Origin: Puniceicoccaceae bacterium 5H
Lineage (GTDB): Bacteria; Verrucomicrobiota; Verrucomicrobiia; Opitutales; Oceanipulchritudinaceae
Direction of reading: 5' to 3'
NCBI GenBank assembly: GCA_009772895.1
Contig: WOUP01000002.1
Location: 62,001 to 126,000 of the forward strand
Length of the DNA stretch: 64,000 nt
The stretch's first letter is position 1. Each line of letters starts with the position of its first letter. Of this stretch, positions 1-13,190 are shown piece by piece. Below the pieces are notes generated by a model. That model was given only the letters and a program-made list of their open reading frames with translations, was not told the origin of the DNA and ran no database searches. Position numbers and translations under genes: made by a program.

Positions 1-1067
1 AGATCGTCGAGAAATACAATCCCGAAGGCGTCAGCATCATCGTGAGCGATCCCCGCACGGGCGAGATCCGCGCGATGGGCAATTACCCGAAGTTCGATCC
101 CAACGAGTTCTGGGAATACCCGATCGAAAATCAGCGCAACCGCGCCGTGACGGATGTCTACGAACCGGGTTCGACTTTCAAGATCGTGGCCGCGTCCGGT
201 GCCCTCGAAGAAGGCCTGGTGACGCCCGATACGATCATCGACTGCAGCAAGCCGGTGGTGGAATACCGCGGCCGCCGCATCCGGATGCCTAATGACGACC
301 ACGCGCTGGGCGAGATCCCGGTGTCGACCGTCATCGCCAAGTCCAGCAATCGCGGGGCGGCAACGCTGGGCATGATGCTGGGCGACCAACGCATGCACGA
401 TTACGCGGCCAGCTTCGGCTTCGGCACGGAAACGGGCTGGGGCCCGGCGGGCGAAGTCGGCGGCATCCTCCACGATGTGAAGGACTGGGACGGCCTCACC
501 ATTTCGCGCCTGCCGGCCGGTTATGCGGTCTCGGCGACCCCCTTGCAGGTGCACATGGCGATGTCGACCATCGCCAACGATGGTGTGTTGATGCACCCGC
601 GCGTCGTGCATGAGATCAAGGACCGTAACGGCAACGCCATTGTGGAATTTACCCCGCGCCCGCGTGAACGCGTGATCTCGGACGAGACGGCGCGCAAGGT
701 CCGGGCCATGCTCAACCGCGTGGTCAGCACGGAGGGCACGGCCCGCCGCGCGATGATCGACGGCTACACCGTGGCCGGCAAGACCGGCACCTCCCGCAAG
801 ATCGTGAACGGGCACTACTCGCACCGCGAGCACGTCGGCTCGTTCTCCGGCTTCTTCCCGGTCAGCGATCCACAGGTGGTCATCACGGTGATGGTCAACA
901 ACCCGCGCTTTCCGGGCATCGGCTACGGCGGCGTGGTGGCGGCCCCGGCCTTTCAGTCGCTCGGCGAACAGTTGGCGTCCTACTACGCGATCCCGCGCGA
1001 CGACGAAGACGAATCTAAACGGCCTGGCGGGCTTTACGTGGCCCAACAGATGGAGACGGTACGGTGA
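1..1067 (+). CDS. ftsI: Penicillin-binding protein, FtsI/PBP3-type transpeptidase, 3' part
   Basis: C-terminal part of a class B penicillin-binding protein, the D,D-transpeptidase that cross-links septal peptidoglycan in the periplasm. The reading frame is open from base 3, so the N-terminal anchor and dimerisation domain lie upstream of the window. The three transpeptidase motifs are visible in order: PGSTFK with its nucleophile Ser codon at 171-173, then KSSN, then GKTGTS near 777-797. The stop overlaps a possible GTG start for murE. It heads the dcw cluster, so FtsI is favoured over a general PBP2. Family assignment is firm; the symbol rests on context. Confidence 0.92.
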   Translation, partial: IVEKYNPEGVSIIVSDPRTGEIRAMGNYPKFDPNEFWEYPIENQRNRAVTDVYEPGSTFKIVAASGALEEGLVTPDTIIDCSKPVVEYRGRRIRMPNDDHALGEIPVSTVIAKSSNRGAATLGMMLGDQRMHDYAASFGFGTETGWGPAGEVGGILHDVKDWDGLTISRLPAGYAVSATPLQVHMAMSTIANDGVLMHPRVVHEIKDRNGNAIVEFTPRPRERVISDETARKVRAMLNRVVSTEGTARRAMIDGYTVAGKTGTSRKIVNGHYSHREHVGSFSGFFPVSDPQVVITVMVNNPRFPGIGYGGVVAAPAFQSLGEQLASYYAIPRDDEDESKRPGGLYVAQQMETVR

Positions 1068-1092
1068 CCCCTTTTTCCCTGCTTGCTCATAC

Positions 1093-1108
1093 GCCTGCCT
1101 CCGCAGGC
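1093..1108 (+). other. Stem-loop in the ftsI-murE spacer
   Basis: GCCTGC (1093-1098) and GCAGGC (1103-1108) form a 6-bp stem around a CTCC loop. It lies in the 107-base stretch between the ftsI stop and the preferred murE start. This supports reading that stretch as a spacer and not as an N-terminal extension of MurE. No T tract follows, so it is not a clear terminator. Confidence 0.4.
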
Positions 1109-1174
1109 GACCAACGACTGCACGAGGCGAGTTCAGTCCTGCTGCAGCGCATGGTCCAGCCCAGGAATGTGACG

Positions 1175-2653
1175 ATGATGACATTGGCCCAACTCTTCCG
1201 CGATCTCCCCGGTATGGAGCTGAAAGGCCCGGATGACGTGTCGGTGCGGGCCCTGTGCATCGACAGCCGTCGCGTGGCTCCAGGGGCGGTCTTTTTCGCC
1301 CTGCCGGGGCGCCGCACCCACGGCCTCAAATACATCGAGGAGGCCATGGACCGCGGGGCGACCGCCATCGTGACCGATCAGGATATCTGGGTGCCGCGCA
1401 AGACTGCGCTCGTGCACGTGCCCAACGTGCGGGCGGCGCTCGTGACGGCTTCCCGCCGCTTTTACCACAATCCGCAGCAACACCTGCACCTCGTGGGCGT
1501 GACGGGCACCAGCGGCAAGACGGTGGTCTCCAGCCTCCTGCATGACTGGTGGAGCGCGGAAGCCCCGACCGGCCTGCTCGGCACGATCCACTATGCGCTC
1601 GGCAGCCGCACACTGCCGGCCAACCGCACGACGCCGGAACCGATCGACCTCTATGCCATGTTGGCGCAGATGCACCAGGCCGGTTGTCAGCGCGCGGTGA
1701 TGGAGGTCAGTTCGCACGCGCTCGACCAGGAACGGGTGCGCGATCTGGCCTACGAGACGGTTGCCTTTCTCAACCTGACGCCCGAGCACCTCGATTACCA
1801 CGGCTCGATGGAGGGCTATTTCGAGTCGGTGGCGCGACTCTTCGACGGTCGCAACGGTCCGGCGCCCAAGCGCGCGGTGATCAACCTCGACGACCCGTAT
1901 GGCGATATGCTCATTTCCCGCCTGCCGGCGGACGCGAAAGTCGTGACCTTTGGCCGCGATCCACGGGCGGACCTGCGGCTGGAGGATGTCCAGTGCAGCC
2001 GCTACGGTGCGAGCTTCAAGCTGCACACGCCGGACGAAGTGCTTTCCGTGCACTCACCGCTGGTGGGCGAGTTCAACGTCGACAACGTGGCGGCCGCGCT
2101 GGCCGTCGCCTGCGTCGAGGGCACCGACCTGCACCACTGCGTGCGTCAACTGGCGCGCTTTGGCGGCGTGCGGGGGCGCCTGGAGCTGGTGAACGAGGGG
2201 CAGGAGTTTGCGGTGCTGGTCGACTACGCGCACACGCCGCAGGCCTACCGCCGCGTCTTGCGCACCCTGCGCGCCATCACGCCCGGTCGCCTGTTGGTGG
2301 TCTTCGGCTGTGGGGGGGATCGCGATCCGGCTCGCCGCCCGGAAGTCACCCAGGTAGTGGCCGAAGAAGCCGATCTGGCCTGGGCGACGGCCGACAACCC
2401 GCGCAGCGAACACCTCAACGACATTTTTCGCCACATGCGGGCGGGCCTGCCCAAGCAGCACTCGGTGCGCTTCCTCGAGGACCGCCGCCACGCCATCAGC
2501 ACGGCGCTGGATGCTGCCCGCGAGGGCGACACGGTGCTCATCGCCGGCAAGGGCCACGAAACGTTTCAACAGCACGCTGACTCGGTCGTCCCGTTCGACG
2601 ATCGGGCCGTCGCGCGCCAACTCCTGCGTTACCGCCGCGAGCTTTCTTCCTGA
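1175..2653 (+). CDS. murE: UDP-MurNAc-tripeptide synthetase MurE (mDAP-type)
   Basis: Cytoplasmic Mur ligase adding the third amino acid to UDP-MurNAc-L-Ala-D-Glu. The P-loop GVTGTSGKT is at about residues 108-116. A DNPR motif at about 407-410 is the signature of meso-diaminopimelate-specific enzymes, and GKGHE follows near the C terminus. The frame is open back to a GTG at 1064 that overlaps ftsI. I chose ATG 1175 because AGGA lies 8 bases upstream and homologous MurE proteins begin close to this point (MTLAQLF). The stop overlaps the murF start by one base, which indicates translational coupling. Confidence 0.95.
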   Translation: MMTLAQLFRDLPGMELKGPDDVSVRALCIDSRRVAPGAVFFALPGRRTHGLKYIEEAMDRGATAIVTDQDIWVPRKTALVHVPNVRAALVTASRRFYHNPQQHLHLVGVTGTSGKTVVSSLLHDWWSAEAPTGLLGTIHYALGSRTLPANRTTPEPIDLYAMLAQMHQAGCQRAVMEVSSHALDQERVRDLAYETVAFLNLTPEHLDYHGSMEGYFESVARLFDGRNGPAPKRAVINLDDPYGDMLISRLPADAKVVTFGRDPRADLRLEDVQCSRYGASFKLHTPDEVLSVHSPLVGEFNVDNVAAALAVACVEGTDLHHCVRQLARFGGVRGRLELVNEGQEFAVLVDYAHTPQAYRRVLRTLRAITPGRLLVVFGCGGDRDPARRPEVTQVVAEEADLAWATADNPRSEHLNDIFRHMRAGLPKQHSVRFLEDRRHAISTALDAAREGDTVLIAGKGHETFQQHADSVVPFDDRAVARQLLRYRRELSS

Positions 2654-4107
2654 TGTCGATCTTTAGCGCCAGTCAACTCGCCGCCTGGACCGACGGGACC
2701 TGGACCCCGCAGGCGCCGGAGCGCGTGACCGGTTTCCACTTCGACTCCCGGCAAATCGTGCCGGGCGATCTCTTTGTGGCCCTGCGCTCCGAACGCCGGG
2801 ACGGGCACGACTTTGTGGCGGCCGCGGCAGATCAGGGTGCGGCGGCGGCGTTGGTCTCTCGGGGCATGCCCCATCCGCTGCCGCAGCTGGTGGTGCACGA
2901 TCCCTTGACTGCCCTGCACGCGATTGCGCGGGCGCATCGGGCGGCCTGGCCGCACCCGGTGGTCGGCATCACGGGCAGCGTGGGCAAGACCTCGACCAAA
3001 GATCTGCTGGCGCATCTGTTGGGACGCGAAACGACGGCGGCCACGCCCGGCAACTTCAACAATCACCTCGGCGTGCCGCTTTCGATCCTGCAGGCCGAGC
3101 CGAATGTGCACCAGGCACTGGTGCTCGAAGCCGGCACCAACAGCCCGGGTGAAATCGCGCAACTGGCGGAGCTGATCCAGCCGCTGGTCGCGATCGTCAC
3201 GTCAGTGGGGCCGGCGCACCTCGACCGACTGCACGACCTCGCGGGGGTCGCGGCGGAAAAAGCGGCGCTACTGCAGGCTGCGACCGCGCCGGAGCTGGCC
3301 ATCTTCCCGGCCGAGCTGACCACCTACCAACCTTTTCAACACATCTCCTGCCACGCCTGGCCAGTCTATCAGGGAGACGGGCCGGCCGAGGCGGGACGTG
3401 TTGTTTACCAAACGACCAAACTAGAAACTGGAACGAGTGAAACAGACAGGCAGGTTAGCGTATACCAGCCTCAACCAGCACCCTCGGACGCGGCGGTCGG
3501 ACTGACCATCTGGCTGCCGCCCGAGGTCGTGCCGGGTGGGGAGCCCGTGCGCGCGACGTTCCACTCCTGCAGTGAGGGCATGGCCCGCAACGCCGCCCTT
3601 GCGGTCGCGGCTGCCGCCCGGCTCGGGGTGTCGCCCAAAACGATTGCCGAGCGGCTGCAGTCGTGGCGCCCGCTGGAGGACCGCGGCAGCTGGCGCGAAC
3701 AAGGAGGCCGTTCCTATTACGTGGATTGCTACAACGCCAATCCCAAGTCTTTTGTCGATTCGCTCCAGGCCTTTCATCAACACTGTTCCGCGCCACCGCG
3801 TGTCTTCGTGCTAGGGGCCATGTTCGAGCTCGGGGCCGAACGCGCCCGCTGGCACCGCTGGGTCGCGGAGCGCATCCCCGCGCACGCGGGTGACCGCATC
3901 ATCCTAGTGGGCGAGGGCAGCGACGCCTACCTGCCGGGCCTGCTGGTGTTCCAGCGTTCCGGCGTGATGGTCACTCAAGTGGCGACGGCCGAAGCGGCGT
4001 CCGAGTTGCTCAAGGCCTCGGACGCACCCGTTTACCTGAAGGGCGGCCACGCGTCGCGCCTCGAAGTGCTGGCCCCCAAGGCGGAGGAGGTGTCGCATGC
4101 TGACTGA
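2653..4107 (+). CDS. murF: UDP-MurNAc-tripeptide:D-Ala-D-Ala ligase MurF
   Basis: Mur ligase that attaches D-Ala-D-Ala to complete the cytoplasmic pentapeptide precursor. The P-loop GITGSVGKTST is at residues 105-115, followed by the typical TPGNFNNHLGVP and EAGTNSPGEI stretches and, in the C-terminal domain, DCYNANPKS. The 484-residue length is slightly above the family norm. The excess lies around residues 250-276 (about 3400-3480), where the DNA is less GC-rich and uses different codons from its surroundings. It overlaps murE by 1 base and mraY by 11 bases, so it sits in one coupled operon. Confidence 0.95.
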   Translation: MSIFSASQLAAWTDGTWTPQAPERVTGFHFDSRQIVPGDLFVALRSERRDGHDFVAAAADQGAAAALVSRGMPHPLPQLVVHDPLTALHAIARAHRAAWPHPVVGITGSVGKTSTKDLLAHLLGRETTAATPGNFNNHLGVPLSILQAEPNVHQALVLEAGTNSPGEIAQLAELIQPLVAIVTSVGPAHLDRLHDLAGVAAEKAALLQAATAPELAIFPAELTTYQPFQHISCHAWPVYQGDGPAEAGRVVYQTTKLETGTSETDRQVSVYQPQPAPSDAAVGLTIWLPPEVVPGGEPVRATFHSCSEGMARNAALAVAAAARLGVSPKTIAERLQSWRPLEDRGSWREQGGRSYYVDCYNANPKSFVDSLQAFHQHCSAPPRVFVLGAMFELGAERARWHRWVAERIPAHAGDRIILVGEGSDAYLPGLLVFQRSGVMVTQVATAEAASELLKASDAPVYLKGGHASRLEVLAPKAEEVSHAD

Positions 4108-5203
4108 GCTCGCTCAATATCAGGATTTGTGGAGTCCCCTGCGCCTCTTCACCTACATTTCTTTCCGCAGCATCATGGGGGCGGCGACCGCGCTGTTCCT
4201 CGGCATGATTCTGGCCCCGATTCTGATCCGCCGGCTGCGTGCATTCAAGCTGGCCCAGGTCTTCCGCAACCAGCAGGAGGTGGGCAAGCTGGCGGAGTTG
4301 CACGCGGGCAAGAAGGGCACGCCGACCATGGGCGGGTTGATCATCTACCTGAGTGTGACGATCAGCACGCTCCTCTGGGCCGAGTGGAATGTCTTCATCG
4401 AGGCAGCGTTGCTCGTCTATACCGGGCTGACCGTGATCGGCTTTCTCGACGACTACCTCAAGATCACCAAGCGCAGCTCCGGCGGCCTCCAGGGGCGCTA
4501 CAAGCTGATCGGCCAGCTGCTGCTGACGCTGGGCGCGCTGGCGCTGCTGCTGACCGATCCGGTGACGGCGGAACCGATCCGCGAACTGTGGGTGCCCTTC
4601 CTCAAGGCGCCGATCATCGGCACCATGCCGTTGGTGGTGCTCTTCGTGCTCGCCTTTCTCGTGCTCGCGGGCTCCAGCAACGCGATCAACCTCACCGACG
4701 GCGTGGACGGCCTCGCGATCGGCTGCACGCTTACGGTAGCGATGGCCTACGGGTTGATGGCCTACGCTACAGGCAACTTCAAGTATGCCGATTATCTCCT
4801 TCTGCGCTTCCTGCCCGGCGCGGGTGAGTTGACGGTGCTGTGTGCGATTCTCTGCGCCGCCTGCCTCGCCTTCCTCTGGCACAATGCGCACCCGGCCAAC
4901 GTGTTCATGGGGGACACGGGCTCACTGGCGCTCGGCGGCCTCGTCGGCATTATAGCGCTGATGATCCTGCAGCCCTTCACTCTGGTCATCGTCGGCGGGG
5001 TGTTCGTTTGCGAGGCGCTGTCCGTCATCATCCAGGTGGGGGTGTTCAAGGCCTCGGGCCGCAAGCACCGCTTCTTCCGGATGGCCCCGATTCACCACCA
5101 TTTCGAACTCGGCGGCTGGGCCGAAACCCAGGTCGTCGTGCGTTTCTGGATTCTTTCCCTCATTTGCGCGATCGCCGGTTTGGCGACCTTGAAACTTCGC
5201 TGA
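4097..5203 (+). CDS. mraY: Phospho-MurNAc-pentapeptide transferase MraY
   Basis: Polytopic inner-membrane enzyme making lipid I from UDP-MurNAc-pentapeptide and undecaprenyl phosphate. About ten hydrophobic segments are visible. Family motifs include KKGTPTMGG near residue 73, FLDDYLK, the NLTDGVDGLA loop, MGDTGSLALGG and the histidine cluster HHHFELGGW near the C terminus. The 368-residue length is normal. It starts inside the end of murF, the usual dcw order. Confidence 0.97.
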   Translation: MLTELAQYQDLWSPLRLFTYISFRSIMGAATALFLGMILAPILIRRLRAFKLAQVFRNQQEVGKLAELHAGKKGTPTMGGLIIYLSVTISTLLWAEWNVFIEAALLVYTGLTVIGFLDDYLKITKRSSGGLQGRYKLIGQLLLTLGALALLLTDPVTAEPIRELWVPFLKAPIIGTMPLVVLFVLAFLVLAGSSNAINLTDGVDGLAIGCTLTVAMAYGLMAYATGNFKYADYLLLRFLPGAGELTVLCAILCAACLAFLWHNAHPANVFMGDTGSLALGGLVGIIALMILQPFTLVIVGGVFVCEALSVIIQVGVFKASGRKHRFFRMAPIHHHFELGGWAETQVVVRFWILSLICAIAGLATLKLR

Positions 5204-5279
5204 TACAAAATGCGCACTTCTTCACGTTTCCTTCACCTTTCCATTGCCCATCGGGCAAGCAACTTCACACTCAGAATCC

Positions 5280-6380
5280 ATGGACTCTGAAGCATCCCGT
5301 CCGCCCATGAAATTTCCACAGCTCCTCGGTCTGATCGTGGCCGTACATGCTGGCCTCATCGGCATTCTTTTCTTCCAACCCGGCTGCCGCACCACAGAAG
5401 AGGCGGCGCCCGCGCCGCAGAGCTCGCTGCCGCAGACGCAAGACACGACCGCGAGCCGCTCGACGCCCACTCAAAGCACCACCGCTCAAAACCAGCCGCG
5501 ACAGCAGGTCGACCCGGCTTTCAACGCCAATCTGCCCGGCAGTGGCGGCGGCGCCTCCTCCAGTAATGCAGGACTTTACCCGCCGACGCGCCCGGAGCGC
5601 TCCTCCACGCCGAGTTCGCCGGCTTCGACCAGCTCGTCCTATAACCGCTCCAGCTCGAGCCGCTCGACTTCCAACGAGCCGGTGCTGCAGCCGCTGAATC
5701 CTGAAGTCGACCGTAGTTCTTCGAGCTCCAGCAGCACGGCGAGTTCGGCTCCCGACACGGAATCCCGCGTCTATGTGGTGAAGCGTGGTGACAGCCTCAG
5801 CCGCATCGCCAAGCAACAGGGCACCACGGTGGCTGCTCTGCGCGCCGCGAACAACCTGAAGGGCGACACCATTTTCCCGGATCAGGAGCTCTACATTCCC
5901 GATGAGGGCAGCACGGTCTCGAACGTGCCGAGCCAAGCGCAGCGCAGCCACGCCAACGAGTCGAAGCCGCAGCTCGCGAATGGTCAGGAATACACGATCC
6001 AGAAGGGCGACAGTCTCAGCCGGATCGCGTCGAAGTTTGGCACGACGATCACAGCAATCAAGCGTGCGAACAACCTGAACAGCAATATGATCCGCGCGGG
6101 GGATAAGCTCGTGATCCCGGGCGCCGGCGGCTCGAGCAGTTCGTCCGCCTCCAGCAGCCGTGCGACGACTTCGAGCAGTTCCAGCTCTTCCTCCAGCAGT
6201 TCTACCCGCCTGCAGCCGCAAAGCAGCGAGCCCCTGATTCTGGGCGGCTCGAGCAGCACCAGCGGTTCCGGTTCCACCACGTCTTCCTCCAGCGACGAGG
6301 ATACCCTCAACGAGCTAGAGTTCGACGATCTGCCGCCGGTGCAGGTCGAAACGCAGGACGAAGGCGACTCCAACAACTAA
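5280..6380 (+). CDS. Envelope LysM-repeat protein with Ser-rich linkers
   Basis: Predicted envelope protein that binds peptidoglycan through two LysM domains at about residues 164-207 and 237-281, each with the xGDSLSRIA core. An N-terminal hydrophobic segment (about residues 14-31) ends in QPGC. It could be a signal anchor or an atypical lipoprotein signal. The rest is Ser/Thr/Pro-rich linker, and the C-terminal tail is acidic. The frame is open to a TTG at 5244; ATG 5280 is preferred, and ATG 5307 is possible. It sits between mraY and ftsW, where many bacteria have murD, which suggests a role in septal or wall assembly. No catalytic domain is visible. Confidence 0.85.
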   Translation: MDSEASRPPMKFPQLLGLIVAVHAGLIGILFFQPGCRTTEEAAPAPQSSLPQTQDTTASRSTPTQSTTAQNQPRQQVDPAFNANLPGSGGGASSSNAGLYPPTRPERSSTPSSPASTSSSYNRSSSSRSTSNEPVLQPLNPEVDRSSSSSSSTASSAPDTESRVYVVKRGDSLSRIAKQQGTTVAALRAANNLKGDTIFPDQELYIPDEGSTVSNVPSQAQRSHANESKPQLANGQEYTIQKGDSLSRIASKFGTTITAIKRANNLNSNMIRAGDKLVIPGAGGSSSSSASSSRATTSSSSSSSSSSSTRLQPQSSEPLILGGSSSTSGSGSTTSSSSDEDTLNELEFDDLPPVQVETQDEGDSNN

Positions 6381-6401
6381 GCCTTCCGCTCCACGATCCG
6401 C

Positions 6402-7571
6402 ATGTTTGCCAGCGATACAGTCGAAGCACCAGAGCCCTCCCGGATGAACGTCGTTCGCCGGGGCTGGGTGGAGCTGGTCATCGTCTTGCTGGTGGCGTGC
6501 ATCTGCTGGCTGGGCTTGCTGATGCTCTACAGCATTGGACGGGGGGCCCAGCCGGGCAAGGAGCTCTATTACTTCACGCGCCAGGCGATCTTCATGGGCA
6601 TTGCGCTCGGGGGCATGTTCGTGGCCTGGCGGCTCAACCTCGAGCGCTTGCGGGCGCTGGCGTGGCCTATCGCAGCGGCAGGGATGCTGTTGCTGGTGAT
6701 CGTGCTGATCCCGGGCATCGGCAAGGAGACCAACGGTGCGCGCCGCTGGATCCTCCTGGGGCCGTTGACGCTGCAGGCGACGGATATGGCGAAGGTGGCG
6801 CTGCTCTTTACGCTCAGCCACTTCCTCGCCAACAACCAGCGCCATCACGGCACCTTCCTGCGCGGGTTCATCCTGCCTGGGATTGTGGTCGGCATACCGG
6901 TCGTGCTCGTCTTCCTTGAGCCCGACTACGGGACTGCGGTGCTCTTTGCGGCGGTGGGCGGCATCCTGCTTTTCCTGGCTGGCGTGCGCCTGTATTATCT
7001 GATCCCGACCGCATTGGCCGGGGTGGGCGCCTTCGCTTACCTGGTCTCCAACGACCCGGTGCGCCTGGCGCGTATCACCTCCTTTCTCGATCTCGAGGCC
7101 AACCGCTCGGAGGGCGCCTACCAGCTCTGGCAGGGCATCGTGGGCTTTGGCGTCGGCGGCATCGACGGCGTGGGGCTGGGGCAGGGGCGGCAGCAGCTGG
7201 CCTTTTTGCCCGAAGCGCACACCGACTTCATTTTTCCTATCATCGGGGAGGAGATGGGGCTGATCGCGACCTCGCTCGTGGTGGCCGGCTTCGCGCTCTT
7301 TTTTGTGCTGGTCACCTCCCAGCTGCGGCGCGCGCCCAACCTCTTCCAGTTCCTGCTCGTGACCGGCGCGATGCTCTTCATCACCCTGCAGGCGCTGATC
7401 AATTTCGGCGTGTCGACGGGGCTGCTGCCGACCAAGGGCATGTCCCTGCCCATGATCAGTTACGGCGGCTCCAACCTGCTCGGCAATTTCATCCTCATCG
7501 GCATCATCCTCAACTGCCTGCACGAGTGGCGTCGCCCGCTGCGCGATGTGGCGGGGGAGGTGACCTACTGA
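6402..7571 (+). CDS. ftsW: Septal peptidoglycan glycosyltransferase FtsW (SEDS family)
   Basis: SEDS-family membrane protein of about ten helices that polymerises lipid II at the septum with its partner FtsI. Visible hallmarks are KEL near residue 50, the ARRWI-type loop, FLEPDYGTA, the GLGQGRQQLAFLPEAHTDF loop, FPIIGEE, and SYGGSNL near the C terminus. The 389-residue length is normal. FtsW is favoured over RodA because ftsI, ftsQ, ftsA and ftsZ are nearby. Its stop is 3 bases from the murG start. Confidence 0.95.
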   Translation: MFASDTVEAPEPSRMNVVRRGWVELVIVLLVACICWLGLLMLYSIGRGAQPGKELYYFTRQAIFMGIALGGMFVAWRLNLERLRALAWPIAAAGMLLLVIVLIPGIGKETNGARRWILLGPLTLQATDMAKVALLFTLSHFLANNQRHHGTFLRGFILPGIVVGIPVVLVFLEPDYGTAVLFAAVGGILLFLAGVRLYYLIPTALAGVGAFAYLVSNDPVRLARITSFLDLEANRSEGAYQLWQGIVGFGVGGIDGVGLGQGRQQLAFLPEAHTDFIFPIIGEEMGLIATSLVVAGFALFFVLVTSQLRRAPNLFQFLLVTGAMLFITLQALINFGVSTGLLPTKGMSLPMISYGGSNLLGNFILIGIILNCLHEWRRPLRDVAGEVTY

Positions 7572-7574
7572 GCC

Positions 7575-8705
7575 ATGGCCAAGGCCTACATCATCTGTGG
7601 CGGCACCGGCGGGCATCTGGCTCCGGGTATCGCCCTCGCCCAGCGTTGGACCGCGCGTGGGCATAGCTGCCGCCTCGTCGTCAGCAATAAGGATGTGGAC
7701 AGCCGCCTCGCGCGGCACCACCCCGATCTCGATTTTCTCAAGGCGCCCGGTCGCCCGTTTTCCTGGAACCCGCTCAAGCTGGTGCGCTTTTTCTGGGCGT
7801 ATCTGCGGGCCTTCGTCATCGCACTCACGCTGTTGCGCCGCGATCACCCGAGCGTCGTGGTCAGCTTTGGCGGCTTTCTGGGCATGCCGTGGGTCCTGAT
7901 GGCCAAGTGGCTGGAGATTCCCATCGTATTGCACGAGGCCAACCGCGTGCCCGGCCGCGCGACCCGTTTCCTTTCGCCTTTTGCCAACCGCGTTTACCTG
8001 CCCTCGGGGGTACGCCTCAGCCGTGTGCCCAGCCACCTCATCCGCCCGCTCGGGCTGCCGCTGCGGCAGGAAGTCCAGCACATCAAAAAGGCAGAGGTGC
8101 GCGAAAAGTGGGACATCCCGATGGGCGTGAAGCTCATTGTCGTGCTCGGCGGCAGCCAGGGGGCGACTTCGCTGAACGAATGGGTGGAAGACCACCGCGA
8201 CGTCATGGTGCGCGAGGGTATCTGGATGATCTGTCTGACGGGCCCGGCCAAGGGGGAGGAAAAGGTGGAGGAGTTCGACTCGCCGGAGGGCTTCCGCGTG
8301 CGCTTCCAATGGATCCCCTTTACCGACCGCATGGCGGAGCTGCTTTCGGTGGCTGATATCGCCATCACACGCGCCGGCGCCGGCACCATTGCCGAGCTGA
8401 TCCAGTGCCTGACTCCCTCGATCTTCGTGCCCTATCCCTTTGCGGCGGATAACCACCAGGTGGCCAACGCTAATTATCTTGAGCAGCGCGGCGGCGGCAT
8501 CGTCGTCATGCAAAACAAGCTCTCCACCTTGCTGACCGAAGCGCTCGACCTCGTCTTCAACGACTGGTTGCTCAGCCGCATGCGCGAAAACCTGCGCCTG
8601 CTGGGCCAGGAAGACGCCGCGCTCGCCATGGCGCAAGACATCGAATTTCTGCTTTCCGCCCGTCAAATGGCCGATCCCTCGGCCGTCGTCAGTTCGCCTT
8701 CGTGA
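7575..8705 (+). CDS. murG: UDP-GlcNAc:lipid I N-acetylglucosaminyltransferase MurG
   Basis: Peripheral membrane glycosyltransferase (GT28) converting lipid I to lipid II on the inner face of the membrane. The N-terminal glycine loop GGTGGHLAPG is at residues 9-18. The second domain has GGSQGA and the donor-binding stretch ITRAGAGTIAELI, followed by PYPFAADNHQ. At 376 residues it is of normal length. It is tightly packed after ftsW and overlaps the ddl start by 4 bases (GTGA), so coupling is likely. In many dcw clusters murC and murB follow murG; here ddl does. Confidence 0.96.
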   Translation: MAKAYIICGGTGGHLAPGIALAQRWTARGHSCRLVVSNKDVDSRLARHHPDLDFLKAPGRPFSWNPLKLVRFFWAYLRAFVIALTLLRRDHPSVVVSFGGFLGMPWVLMAKWLEIPIVLHEANRVPGRATRFLSPFANRVYLPSGVRLSRVPSHLIRPLGLPLRQEVQHIKKAEVREKWDIPMGVKLIVVLGGSQGATSLNEWVEDHRDVMVREGIWMICLTGPAKGEEKVEEFDSPEGFRVRFQWIPFTDRMAELLSVADIAITRAGAGTIAELIQCLTPSIFVPYPFAADNHQVANANYLEQRGGGIVVMQNKLSTLLTEALDLVFNDWLLSRMRENLRLLGQEDAALAMAQDIEFLLSARQMADPSAVVSSPS

Positions 8706-9652
8706 AAACCAGCCTCGGACAACATCAACCTCGCATCGCCGTTCTGCACGGTGGCACCTCGCCGGAGCGCGACGTGTCGCTGGTGTCGGGTCGCGCAGTC
8801 GCGCATGCGCTCGAGGGCTTGTATGACGTGGATCTGATCGACTGGCAAAGCGAGTCGCTGCCCGAGTCGCTGGACCCGGCCGAAACGGTGGTCTTTCCGG
8901 CCCTGCATGGCGGCGCTGGGGAGGATGGGCATTTGCAGGCCCAGCTGGAGGCTGCCGGTTTTGCCTATGTCGGCAGCGATGCCAAATCGAGCGAGCTGTG
9001 CATGGACAAGCAGCTGACCAAGGAGGCCGTGAGCCGGGTGGGGGTGACCATTGCTCCGGGCGTGCCGTGGCATCCGCAGGACGCGATGGATGCGGCCGAC
9101 ACTTTTGCCCGCCTCGGGCCGGAACTGATCGTGAAACCGCGCTTTGGCGGCAGCAGTATCGGCCTGGTCATGATCCACTCCCAGGAAGAACTGGAGCGGG
9201 CGGTGCAGGACCTGCCGGCTGACCATTACCTGATCGAGCAGCGCATTGCCGGGCGCGAGCTTTCCATCGGCGTGGTGAATGGCGAGCCGTTGGTAGTGGT
9301 CGAGATCGTGCCGCGCAGCGGCGTCTACGACTACGCGAGCAAATACACGGCTGGCGCGACCGAATACCGTTACCCTGCCGCACTGCCCGATCGCCTCACG
9401 CAGCGCATCCGCTCGCTGGCCCGGGCTTCGTTCCGCGCCTGCAGCTGCCGGGATGTCGCCCGCGTCGATTTTCTGCTGCGGGAGGACGAACCCTATTTTC
9501 TGGAAGTGAACACCTTGCCGGGCCTGACGCCGACCAGCCTGCTGCCGAAGAGCGCCGCCGCCCACCTCAATCTGGATTTTCCGACTCTCATCAACCGCCT
9601 CCTTCAACCCGCGTTGCTGCGCTTCGCCGCCCAGCGCCGCGCCTCCGAATAA
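8702..9652 (+). CDS. ddl: D-alanine--D-alanine ligase
   Basis: ATP-grasp enzyme making the D-Ala-D-Ala dipeptide used by MurF. The N-terminal motif HGGTSPERDVSLVSG includes the conserved Glu. HGGAGEDG, the MDKQLTKE segment, KPRFGGSSIG and the metal-binding LEVNTLPGLT with its preceding RVDFL follow in order. At 316 residues it is of typical length. The GTG start at 8702 overlaps the murG stop. Confidence 0.96.
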   Translation: MKTSLGQHQPRIAVLHGGTSPERDVSLVSGRAVAHALEGLYDVDLIDWQSESLPESLDPAETVVFPALHGGAGEDGHLQAQLEAAGFAYVGSDAKSSELCMDKQLTKEAVSRVGVTIAPGVPWHPQDAMDAADTFARLGPELIVKPRFGGSSIGLVMIHSQEELERAVQDLPADHYLIEQRIAGRELSIGVVNGEPLVVVEIVPRSGVYDYASKYTAGATEYRYPAALPDRLTQRIRSLARASFRACSCRDVARVDFLLREDEPYFLEVNTLPGLTPTSLLPKSAAAHLNLDFPTLINRLLQPALLRFAAQRRASE

Positions 9653-9655
9653 GCC

Positions 9656-10591
9656 ATGCCGCGCAAGAGCAAGACCCAGTCCAAATCTGCCGCCTCGTCC
9701 GAGGCTAGCCACTGGCGCTCCCTGCAGACGCAGAAGGCCAAGCGCAAGGTGCGCCCGCAGACGCGCCAGGCTCGGCAGCGGCGTTGGCTCAAAGGCCTGC
9801 GGGTGACGGCGCTCGCCACGCTTTCGCTCCTGCTCGTGGGCGGACTGGCCTGGAGTGTGTGGTTTGCGAACGACAATTGGGAGGTGCTTTCCACCCCGCG
9901 CCCGGAGTCGCAACTGCAGGAGATTCAGGTGACGACCGACGGTGTGCTGACGCGCGACTGGATCATCGGGCATCTGGAACTGAGCGCGGAGCCGAACCCG
10001 TTGGAACTCGATCTCTTTGCCCTCAAGCAGCAGCTCGAATCGCAACCGCAGATCGCATCCGCCGAGCTGCGCCTCGAGCTGCCCGGCACACTGCATGTGG
10101 ATGTGCTGGAGCGTGAGCCGGTCTTGCGGATGCGCACGCGTTGGCCCGACGGCAGCACCGGGGTGGCTCTGATCGCCCGTGATGGCACGGTCTACGAAGG
10201 CTACAACTACTCGCGTGAACGCTTGATGCGCCTGCCCGGGGCGGTGGGCATCCGCCTGGTTTCGACCGGCCCGGGCCGTTACGAGCCGATCCAGGGCGTC
10301 GACGTGGTGGCCGATTTACTGGAGGTGGCGGCCCATCGTGCACCCGAGCTGTCGCAGGACTGGAAGCTCATTTCGTTCGAGCGTTTCGATGGCGACGTAA
10401 ATGCACCCGATGCCCTCATCACGATCTACGGGCGCTATGTGCACGAATGGGTTTTCTCCCCGGCAGAGGACTTCCCGTCGCAGCTCGCCGCTGCCCGCCA
10501 GCTATACCGCCAGGCCAAATCAAGCCGCCTCAGCACGCTGGCGCAGGTCGACGTATCCTTTCCCGATCACGCCTTCGTGCGTGCGCAGTAA
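9656..10591 (+). CDS. ftsQ: Cell-division protein FtsQ/DivIB-like
   Basis: Bitopic membrane protein linking cytoplasmic FtsZ/FtsA to septal synthesis. A basic N-terminal tail of about 45 residues precedes one membrane helix (about 46-68). A POTRA-like region follows at about 80-155, ending in ELPGTLHVDVLEREPV, which is typical of FtsQ. The C-terminal part is poorly conserved. Position between ddl and ftsA is canonical. The sequence alone is weaker than the context, as is usual for FtsQ. Confidence 0.87.
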   Translation: MPRKSKTQSKSAASSEASHWRSLQTQKAKRKVRPQTRQARQRRWLKGLRVTALATLSLLLVGGLAWSVWFANDNWEVLSTPRPESQLQEIQVTTDGVLTRDWIIGHLELSAEPNPLELDLFALKQQLESQPQIASAELRLELPGTLHVDVLEREPVLRMRTRWPDGSTGVALIARDGTVYEGYNYSRERLMRLPGAVGIRLVSTGPGRYEPIQGVDVVADLLEVAAHRAPELSQDWKLISFERFDGDVNAPDALITIYGRYVHEWVFSPAEDFPSQLAAARQLYRQAKSSRLSTLAQVDVSFPDHAFVRAQ

Positions 10592-11855: not shown

Positions 11856-13190
11856 ATGAACAACTTCACCTCAGAGAGTCCCCTGCAAGCGGCGGATCTC
11901 GACGCTTCCGGTTTGCGCGTCAAGATCATCGGTGTCGGCGGTGCCGGCAACAACGCGGTCGACCGCCTCAAGATCGACCAGCTGGACCAGGTCGACCTCG
12001 CCGTCGTCAATACCGACACCAAGACGCTTTCCGTCTCCCTCATCAGTGAGAAGGTCATGCTTGGCCGCTCGATCACGCGCGGCCTCAGCGCCGGTGGCGA
12101 AGCCGAGATCGGGCGTCAGGCGGCCGACGTGGACCGCCACCTGATCGAGCAGATGGTCAACGGCGTGGACCTCGTGTTCTTGCTCGCCGGCTTGGGCGGA
12201 GGCACCGGCAGCGGCGCCACGCCGCTCATCGCGGAGATTGCCGAGGCCTCGGGCGCGTTGGTGGTGGCATTCGTCACCATGCCTTTTACGCGGGAGGGCA
12301 GTCGCCGCCTGCAACAGGCGGACGAGGCGCTGGTAAAGCTGCGCGAGCACTGTCATGCCGTGGTCTCGTTGCCCAACGACCTGTTGCTGCAGCAGATCGA
12401 CGAGCAGGCGACGGTGATGGAAGCCTTTGCGCTGGCCGACGAATGGATCAGCAAGGGCGTGCGCTCGATCTGGTCGATGCTCTTCATGCAGGGGCTGATC
12501 AATGTGGACTTTGCGACGCTCAAGAGCGCCTTCACCTGCCGGGGCGGCAAGACCCTCTTTGGCACGGCGGAGGGGGAGGGCGAGCACGCGGTGGCCGACG
12601 TCATCCGCAACCTCGACCTCTGCCCCTTGCTGCACCTGCCGGAAAACCGCTACCTGCGCAAGGCCGACCGCCTGATCGTGAACATCACCGGCGGCACTTC
12701 GCTCACGATGACGCAGGTCCACGAGATCCTGCAACACGTGACGGATCGCTTTGGCAGTAAGGAGCATACGGTGCTGGGAGCCGTGATCGACTCGGAGCTG
12801 GGCGACAAGTTGACGCTCACCGTGATCGGCACGACGGACGTCGGCACCAGCCACAAACCGGGCAAGCGTTACGCGCCTGTGCCCGCCGCGAATGCTGCCA
12901 GCCAGGCGCCGCAGCCCAAGGCAAAGCCGCGTCAGGCGGAACCGATTGCGTTGGATCCCGACGCGGAGCTGTTTGAGACCAAGGTGGAAGCGCCGGAGCT
13001 GGACGAGCACGAGATCGACGACGGCCCGGTCGATCCCGGCAAGCAATCAGAATTCGACTTCCCGCGGCTGGAGGACAACCGTGGTCTCTTCGAGCGCACG
13101 GAGGCCAATCTCTATGAGGGCGAAGACCTCGACATCCCCACCTACTTGCGTCGCGGCATCAAGGTCGCGGTCGAAGTAAAAAAGGGTTGA
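11856..13190 (+). CDS. ftsZ: Cell-division GTPase FtsZ with altered T7 loop
   Basis: Tubulin-like GTPase that forms the division ring. Visible: GVGGAGNNAV near residue 26, NTD, the G-box GLGGGTGSGA near residue 112, PNDLLL, and a C-terminal tail with DIPTYLRRGI, matching the conserved peptide that binds FtsA and ZipA-like partners. The T7 loop reads GLINVDFATLK. Thr221 (codon 12516-12518) stands where the family has the second acidic residue of NxDxxD/E that activates GTP hydrolysis in the neighbouring subunit. Asn216 and Asp218 are kept. The gene is intact and last in the cluster, so it is probably the working FtsZ. Confidence 0.95.
   Translation: MNNFTSESPLQAADLDASGLRVKIIGVGGAGNNAVDRLKIDQLDQVDLAVVNTDTKTLSVSLISEKVMLGRSITRGLSAGGEAEIGRQAADVDRHLIEQMVNGVDLVFLLAGLGGGTGSGATPLIAEIAEASGALVVAFVTMPFTREGSRRLQQADEALVKLREHCHAVVSLPNDLLLQQIDEQATVMEAFALADEWISKGVRSIWSMLFMQGLINVDFATLKSAFTCRGGKTLFGTAEGEGEHAVADVIRNLDLCPLLHLPENRYLRKADRLIVNITGGTSLTMTQVHEILQHVTDRFGSKEHTVLGAVIDSELGDKLTLTVIGTTDVGTSHKPGKRYAPVPAANAASQAPQPKAKPRQAEPIALDPDAELFETKVEAPELDEHEIDDGPVDPGKQSEFDFPRLEDNRGLFERTEANLYEGEDLDIPTYLRRGIKVAVEVKKG

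Follow-up and report, generated by a model that had tools for sequence, protein, structure and literature searches.

Conservation across species and a central part in the GTP-driven dynamics of FtsZ are ascribed to the acidic residues of its T7 loop (PMC8936486). The locus considered here lies in a 64,000-nucleotide stretch of contig WOUP01000002.1 of Puniceicoccaceae bacterium 5H (the window), and a reading of its letters alone (the sequence-only reading) had proposed that the second of these acids is missing from the encoded FtsZ. Two questions follow: is the acid truly lost, and how could cell division run on such a protein?

Identity and Context of the ftsZ Gene

The gene, its neighbours and its C-terminal peptide were delineated as follows.

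11856-13190, + strand: ftsZ, 444 aa, over the PF00091 and PF12327 cut-offs and the single match in the genome
10616-11839, + strand: ftsA, directly upstream of ftsZ (TIGR01174)
42-10591, + strand: remaining dcw cluster (NCBIfam scan)
9656-10591, + strand: ORF in the ftsQ position (position only)
13125-13154, + strand: C-terminal FtsA-binding peptide DLDIPTYLRR, residues 424-433 (motif conserved in Opitutales)

The ftsZ open reading frame is intact on inspection of the ORF and its translation, and the product scores 136.9 bits against PF00091 (cut-off 33) and 41.4 bits against PF12327 (cut-off 27). The equivalog cut-off of TIGR00065 is narrowly missed (276.9 against 295.2 bits) and the protein, a divergent sequence, was therefore not filed under that family; its identity as FtsZ is nonetheless given by homology, fold and context. 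An AlphaFold2 model has a core confidence above 90 and an intact FtsZ fold as predicted, and every one of the nearest solved structures is an FtsZ (TM by target about 0.9). No second FtsZ or tubulin-family protein was found in the genome, either by protein search or with PF00091, which answers the search for a second ftsZ suggested at the outset. Comparison with the congeneric sister species G055, whose FtsZ is 83% identical, gave a dN of 0.118, a dS of 1.04 and a dN/dS of approximately 0.11 (NG86), which shows purifying selection on the gene.

The upstream ftsA scores 304.4 bits against TIGR01174 (cut-off 175.85), and the order of the cluster is ftsI-type PBP, murE, murF, mraY, LysM-domain protein, ftsW, murG, ddl, ftsQ-position ORF, ftsA and ftsZ. 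The ORF at 9656-10591 is without an NCBIfam match and is called ftsQ by position only, and the same scan recognised no murD, murC or murB between the ftsI-type gene and ftsZ. The LysM-domain protein is encoded at 5244-6380, between mraY and ftsW. The C-terminal peptide DLDIPTYLRRGIK is present in the window FtsZ; D424, D426, P428, T429 and R432 are nearly invariant in sequence set A1. Among 105 Opitutales FtsZ the strict motif occurs in 82, the others being mostly fragments or close variants (e.g. LDxPTYLR), and nearly all full-length proteins keep the peptide. The sequence-only reading had described the gene as otherwise intact, as bearing a normal FtsA-binding peptide and as part of the dcw cluster, and the 444-aa ORF, DLDIPTYLRRGIK and the NCBIfam scan of the neighbours agree with it on all three.

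Substitution of the Second T7 Acid

The T7 region was located by translation and ungapped alignment, and its residues by motif mapping and, for Thr221, also by alignment.

12492-12524, + strand: T7 loop and start of helix H8, GLINVDFATLK, residues 213-223
12501-12503, + strand: Asn216, the T7 Asn, retained (S. aureus N208)
12507-12509, + strand: Asp218, T7 Asp, retained (S. aureus D210, the swinging catalytic Asp; PMC8936486)
12516-12518, + strand: Thr221 (ACG), replacing the T7 catalytic Asp (S. aureus D213, E. coli D212)

Measured against the canonical NxDxxD/E pattern, the window FtsZ has Asn216 and Asp218 and carries Thr221 in place of the second acid, and it was for this reason not filed as an FtsZ with a canonical site. 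Thr221 aligns without gaps (HMMER) on the second T7 Asp of B. subtilis and S. aureus FtsZ, and its equivalence to S. aureus D213 was set by motif mapping. The AlphaFold2 confidence of the T7 region is approximately 83-90, with a helix predicted at residues 219-225. The loss of the acid beside a retained Asn and first Asp, as originally proposed, is confirmed; the proposed span of 12495-12530 began one codon late, the true start being 12492.

An artefact might be suspected in a draft assembly (4.10 Mb, 40 contigs, 98.6% complete): a sequencing error, a faulty alignment, or a pseudogene whose genuine FtsZ counterpart is encoded elsewhere. However, threonine also occupies this column in the dcw-type FtsZ of the separate sister species G055 and of all other sampled members of the family, so that an error at 12516-12518 is ruled out, and the ungapped alignment to solved FtsZ likewise rules out displacement of the acid by an insertion or deletion. 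With one FtsZ only, an intact ORF and purifying selection also standing against it, an artefact is refuted by the relatives with Thr at this column and carries a negligible probability.

Distribution across Opitutales and Other Bacteria

A total of 132 Opitutales genomes were searched, FtsZ was recovered from 104 and 105 sequences, including the window protein and one second copy, were scored. The T7 column reads T 47, S 19, A 11, D 9, H 7, M 4, Y 4, I 2, E 1 and N 1; the second acid is absent in 95 of the 105, and Thr or Ser stands in 66 of those 95. An alignment across the Opitutae and other Verrucomicrobia had been put forward as a check of the sequence-only reading; the column in Opitutales upholds the loss and enlarges its scale: what had been framed as a feature of one genome is ancient and spans the order. 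All 121 control FtsZ, from four other phyla and two further genomes, carry complete N-D-D. They were sampled around four unrelated genomes, whose record titles gave the group names by inference: 30 each came from Pseudomonadota, Bacteroidota and Bacillota/Mycoplasmatota and 29, besides a fragment, from Actinomycetota, with two more added. The difference between 95 of 105 without the acid and 0 of 121 outside the phylum is far beyond chance.

A DNA-pattern scan for GLINxDF[A/S][T/S/A/P] over a collection of 84,980 species returned at least 119 stretches, at least 103 of them encoding FtsZ. The 103 FtsZ among the matches listed are titled Verrucomicrobiota or Opitutae or members of these, except one titled only 'bacterium', and one of them is labelled Akkermansia; the 16 non-FtsZ among the matches listed are those from other phyla (e.g. 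Actinomyces, Caulobacteraceae, Flavobacterium). Since the counts are lower bounds and the scan used a single sequence context, they indicate strong enrichment in Verrucomicrobiota rather than proving exclusivity.

History of the Loss

In a tree calculated without the T7 columns, the Opitutales FtsZ form one clade against their relatives in the class (SH-aLRT 100); the deep forks are soft, as this was a quick tree. Most of the outgroup sequences carry full N-D-D, and five changes of the acid/non-acid state suffice on 89 sequences. A clade of four N-D-D sequences (L052, L059, L066 and L069; family f24) lies near the base of Opitutales, which implies either a loss at the base with a regain in this clade or a loss just after the clade had split off. 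The tree places the loss of the acid at the root of Opitutales or close to it, and the acids that stand alone in L054 and L068 appear to be reversions. Two members of the acid-bearing clade, L052 and L069, were inspected and have an altered T4 loop reading GGGTGGPA or GGGTGGPV, not GGGTGSGA, so that the nucleotide site is altered there too, at another place.

Conservation of the Remaining Nucleotide Site

The other residues of the site were mapped by translation (T4) or motif mapping.

12195-12215, + strand: T4 tubulin signature GGGTGSG, residues 114-120, retained
12294-12296, + strand: Glu147 (S. aureus E139), nucleotide-site residue, retained
12306-12308, + strand: Arg151 (S. aureus R143, arginine-finger-like), retained
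12021-12023, + strand: Lys56, replacing S. aureus Gln48

The window FtsZ has GGGTGSG, E147, R151, N174 and D195, and equivalents of S. aureus D46, R143, N208 and D210; D213 has become Thr and Q48 has become Lys. In S. aureus, Gln48 helps to lock K+ in the T7 loop of the neighbouring subunit (PMC8936486). Across the order, 98% of FtsZ keep G114 and 100% keep G116 and, in S. aureus numbering, G72 is kept in 103 of the 105 sequences, E139 in 102, N166 in 97, D46 in 96, D210 in 92, R143 in 84 (as R) and N208 in 70. Poorly kept are Q48 (40) and D213 (9). The Q48 position is Q in 121/121 controls and, among the 105 Opitutales FtsZ, Q in 40, K in 23 and R in 20.

It had also been suggested that another acid might substitute for the lost one, and a column-by-column search for D/E gained in the acid-less FtsZ gave no consistent candidate. 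Columns 36, 65, 93, 252, 271, 303, 320 and 328 were rejected because the acid is phylum-wide, occurs in the acid-bearing clade or is inconsistent; position 303 is the sole column with a gained acid missing from both the acid-bearing clade and the class outgroup, yet it is acidic in only 61%. Separately, a conserved RGGK follows helix H8 in Opitutales (12540-12551, residues 229-232), with one extra residue relative to the controls, and residue 232 is basic in 95% of acid-less members that keep the Asn and Asp versus 11% of controls.

T7 Erosion and Apparent FtsZ Loss in the Phylum

Outside Opitutales the T7 triplet is N-D-D in 15 of 48 sequences from the rest of the class, where R-G-D accounts for 8 and others for the remainder, and in 2 of 35 from the rest of the phylum; a few of the most divergent sequences, such as L164-L170, are poorly aligned at T7 and their letters are unreliable. 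The T7 loop is eroding generally in Verrucomicrobiota FtsZ. In part the losses complement each other: many proteins from outside Opitutales drop Asn208/Asp210 and keep Asp213, and the Opitutales mostly do the reverse. Mirror-image T7 loops (LLRVGLDDL, GLIRIGFDDL) were observed in relatives from the class and phylum, e.g. L138, L141, L143, L125, L126 and L112. Fast FtsZ evolution has been described in Methylacidiphilum, and a 'non-functional' Lentisphaera ftsZ is mentioned by a reviewer in the same paper (PMC2474590).

FtsZ was not detected with PF00091 in any of the 20 sampled genomes from four Opitutales families (f7, f25, f27 and f28; 0.8-1.1 Mb, 68-95% complete), the FtsZ-lacking genomes including G006, G025, G029 and G034. 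A true FtsA was likewise missing from these 20, the best matches being at the PilM/MreB-like level (E approximately 1e-10 to 1e-13) or absent. Within Verrucomicrobiota, ftsZ and ftsA thus seem to have been lost together.

Proposed Function and Alternative Explanations

In S. aureus FtsZ, D210 swings during catalysis and positions water, while D213 stays in position, provides the surroundings and is water-linked to R143; the D213N mutation blocks assembly (PMC8936486). Removal of the acid leaves 7% of the GTPase activity in E. coli D212A and approximately 15% in Arabidopsis FtsZ1 D275A (PMC8142252). Hydrolysis by E. coli D212G is roughly tenfold lower and its rings or vortices are static (PMC7320174), and this mutant fails to complement without suppressors (PMC5405962). 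The acid is thus needed in the S. aureus and E. coli backgrounds, as the non-assembling D213N and the non-complementing D212G demonstrate.

On these grounds we infer that the window protein binds GTP, polymerises and is slow. It would then be the working division FtsZ of an Opitutales-type verrucomicrobium, with folding, GTP binding and polymerisation preserved and FtsA as its anchor. Within the filament, the GTP of the neighbouring subunit would be attacked with the help of Asp218 (D210), Arg151 (R143) and Mg2+. Thr221, or Ser in its place, would offer only a hydroxyl, which may hold the waters normally held by D213 and cap helix H8; this is the least certain step of the scheme. Hydrolysis and filament turnover would proceed well below the rates of canonical FtsZ. 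Slow or altered GTP turnover is, in our judgement, the best reading of the window FtsZ, and on balance we favour a working GTP-binding FtsZ whose hydrolysis was slowed, with residual catalysis by Asp218 and Arg151, after the acid had been lost at the base of the order or close to it. A broader proposal, that a whole free-living order divides with an FtsZ hydrolysing GTP too slowly for treadmilling to organise division, in a Z ring that is naturally hydrolysis-independent or near-static, catalysis having relaxed repeatedly in the phylum and FtsZ/FtsA having been lost in places, is doubtful at present.

Two other explanations were weighed against this slow but working FtsZ. The site could have been rebuilt, Thr or Ser221 together with other interface changes (e.g. 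Lys/Arg at Gln48, near the T7 K+ site) giving near-normal hydrolysis. The non-random choice of Thr or Ser in 66/95, the presence of Lys/Arg in 43/105 Opitutales FtsZ at a Gln invariant in the 121 controls, and strong purifying selection all speak for such a site. However, 21 sequences with Thr still have Gln at position 48, which shows the two changes to be uncoupled, and Gln48 to Lys/Arg was rejected as a coupled compensation; no acid has been gained consistently; and a single precise new chemistry is hard to reconcile with the tolerance of His, Met, Tyr and Ala. A rebuilt site with near-normal rates is considered unlikely. Drift at Q48 and other site residues also weighs against the favoured slow FtsZ, since the GTP chemistry may be more disabled than supposed or rebuilt in ways invisible to sequence.

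Alternatively, division in this group may lean less on FtsZ dynamics, FtsZ persisting as a GTP-bound, static scaffold that serves FtsA and wall synthesis and being dropped in some lineages. The scatter of T7 triplets across the phylum, with N-D-D confined to 4 of 105 sequences in the order, 15/48 in the rest of the class and 2/35 in the rest of the phylum, would fit such a relaxation toward loss, as would the 20/20 sampled genomes without FtsZ and true FtsA and the earlier remark that Verrucomicrobiota FtsZ is the most divergent (PMC9871819). Against it stand the conserved nucleotide site and FtsA peptide, the purifying selection on the gene and the essentiality of ftsZ in V. spinosum, which belongs to the same phylum (PMC12283558); moreover, the genomes of the families lacking FtsZ are reduced, and the loss there may have causes of its own. 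We regard this course as rather improbable.

Comparison with Known Systems

Natural loss of the same T7 acid is known within the superfamily from tubulin, where beta-tubulin has Lys254 at the position of alpha-tubulin Glu254 and faces a GTP that is not hydrolysed. Beta-tubulin alternates with an acid-keeping alpha-tubulin, whereas every window FtsZ subunit is without the acid and there is no second FtsZ. The window protein resembles canonical FtsZ (E. coli, B. subtilis, S. aureus) in its fold, T4 loop, GTP contacts, T7 Asn and first Asp, FtsA peptide and dcw location, and differs in Thr at the second T7 acid, Lys at Gln48 and a TIGR00065 score just below the cut-off. The laboratory mutants E. 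coli D212A/G/N, S. aureus D213N and Arabidopsis FtsZ1 D275A lack the same residue and show GTPase at 7-15%, polymers that are static or stable, or a failure to assemble; they are point changes in acid-tuned proteins and mostly defective, whereas the Opitutales change is fixed across a natural order. The FtsZ of Ca. Thiosymbion oneisti is a natural low-GTPase division FtsZ, which the window protein would resemble if its hydrolysis is slow as proposed, but it keeps its catalytic residues and its slowdown has another cause (PMC8953583).

An acid universal in 121 FtsZ of other phyla is missing in nearly all Opitutales, so a core rule of division fails here. As the sole dcw-encoded FtsZ lacks it order-wide, how far division needs GTP turnover and treadmilling can be tested in natural proteins instead of crippled mutants, and Opitutales FtsZ, with its function as proposed above, is a variant offering good experimental leverage. 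The phylum may also present a series of intermediates linking division by canonical FtsZ with the division without FtsZ seen in the related Chlamydiae and Planctomycetes. No published account of T7 loss in Verrucomicrobiota was found in a literature search whose coverage excluded Pilhofer et al. 2008 (J Bacteriol 190:3192).

Other Verrucomicrobiota FtsZ (RGD, PDD, NTD and other triplets) have lost canonical T7 residues as the window protein has, but often drop Asn208 and/or Asp210 and keep Asp213, mostly the opposite of the window's order. A second ftsA-ftsZ pair was observed in the sister species G055 (L078, G055:C5:60000-61900). Its FtsZ is approximately 47% identical to the R-G-D-type FtsZ of the class members L125 and L126, its T7 loop reads GLINVGLDDL and its tail is long and EP-rich; the pair is possibly a lateral gain, or it may be contamination.
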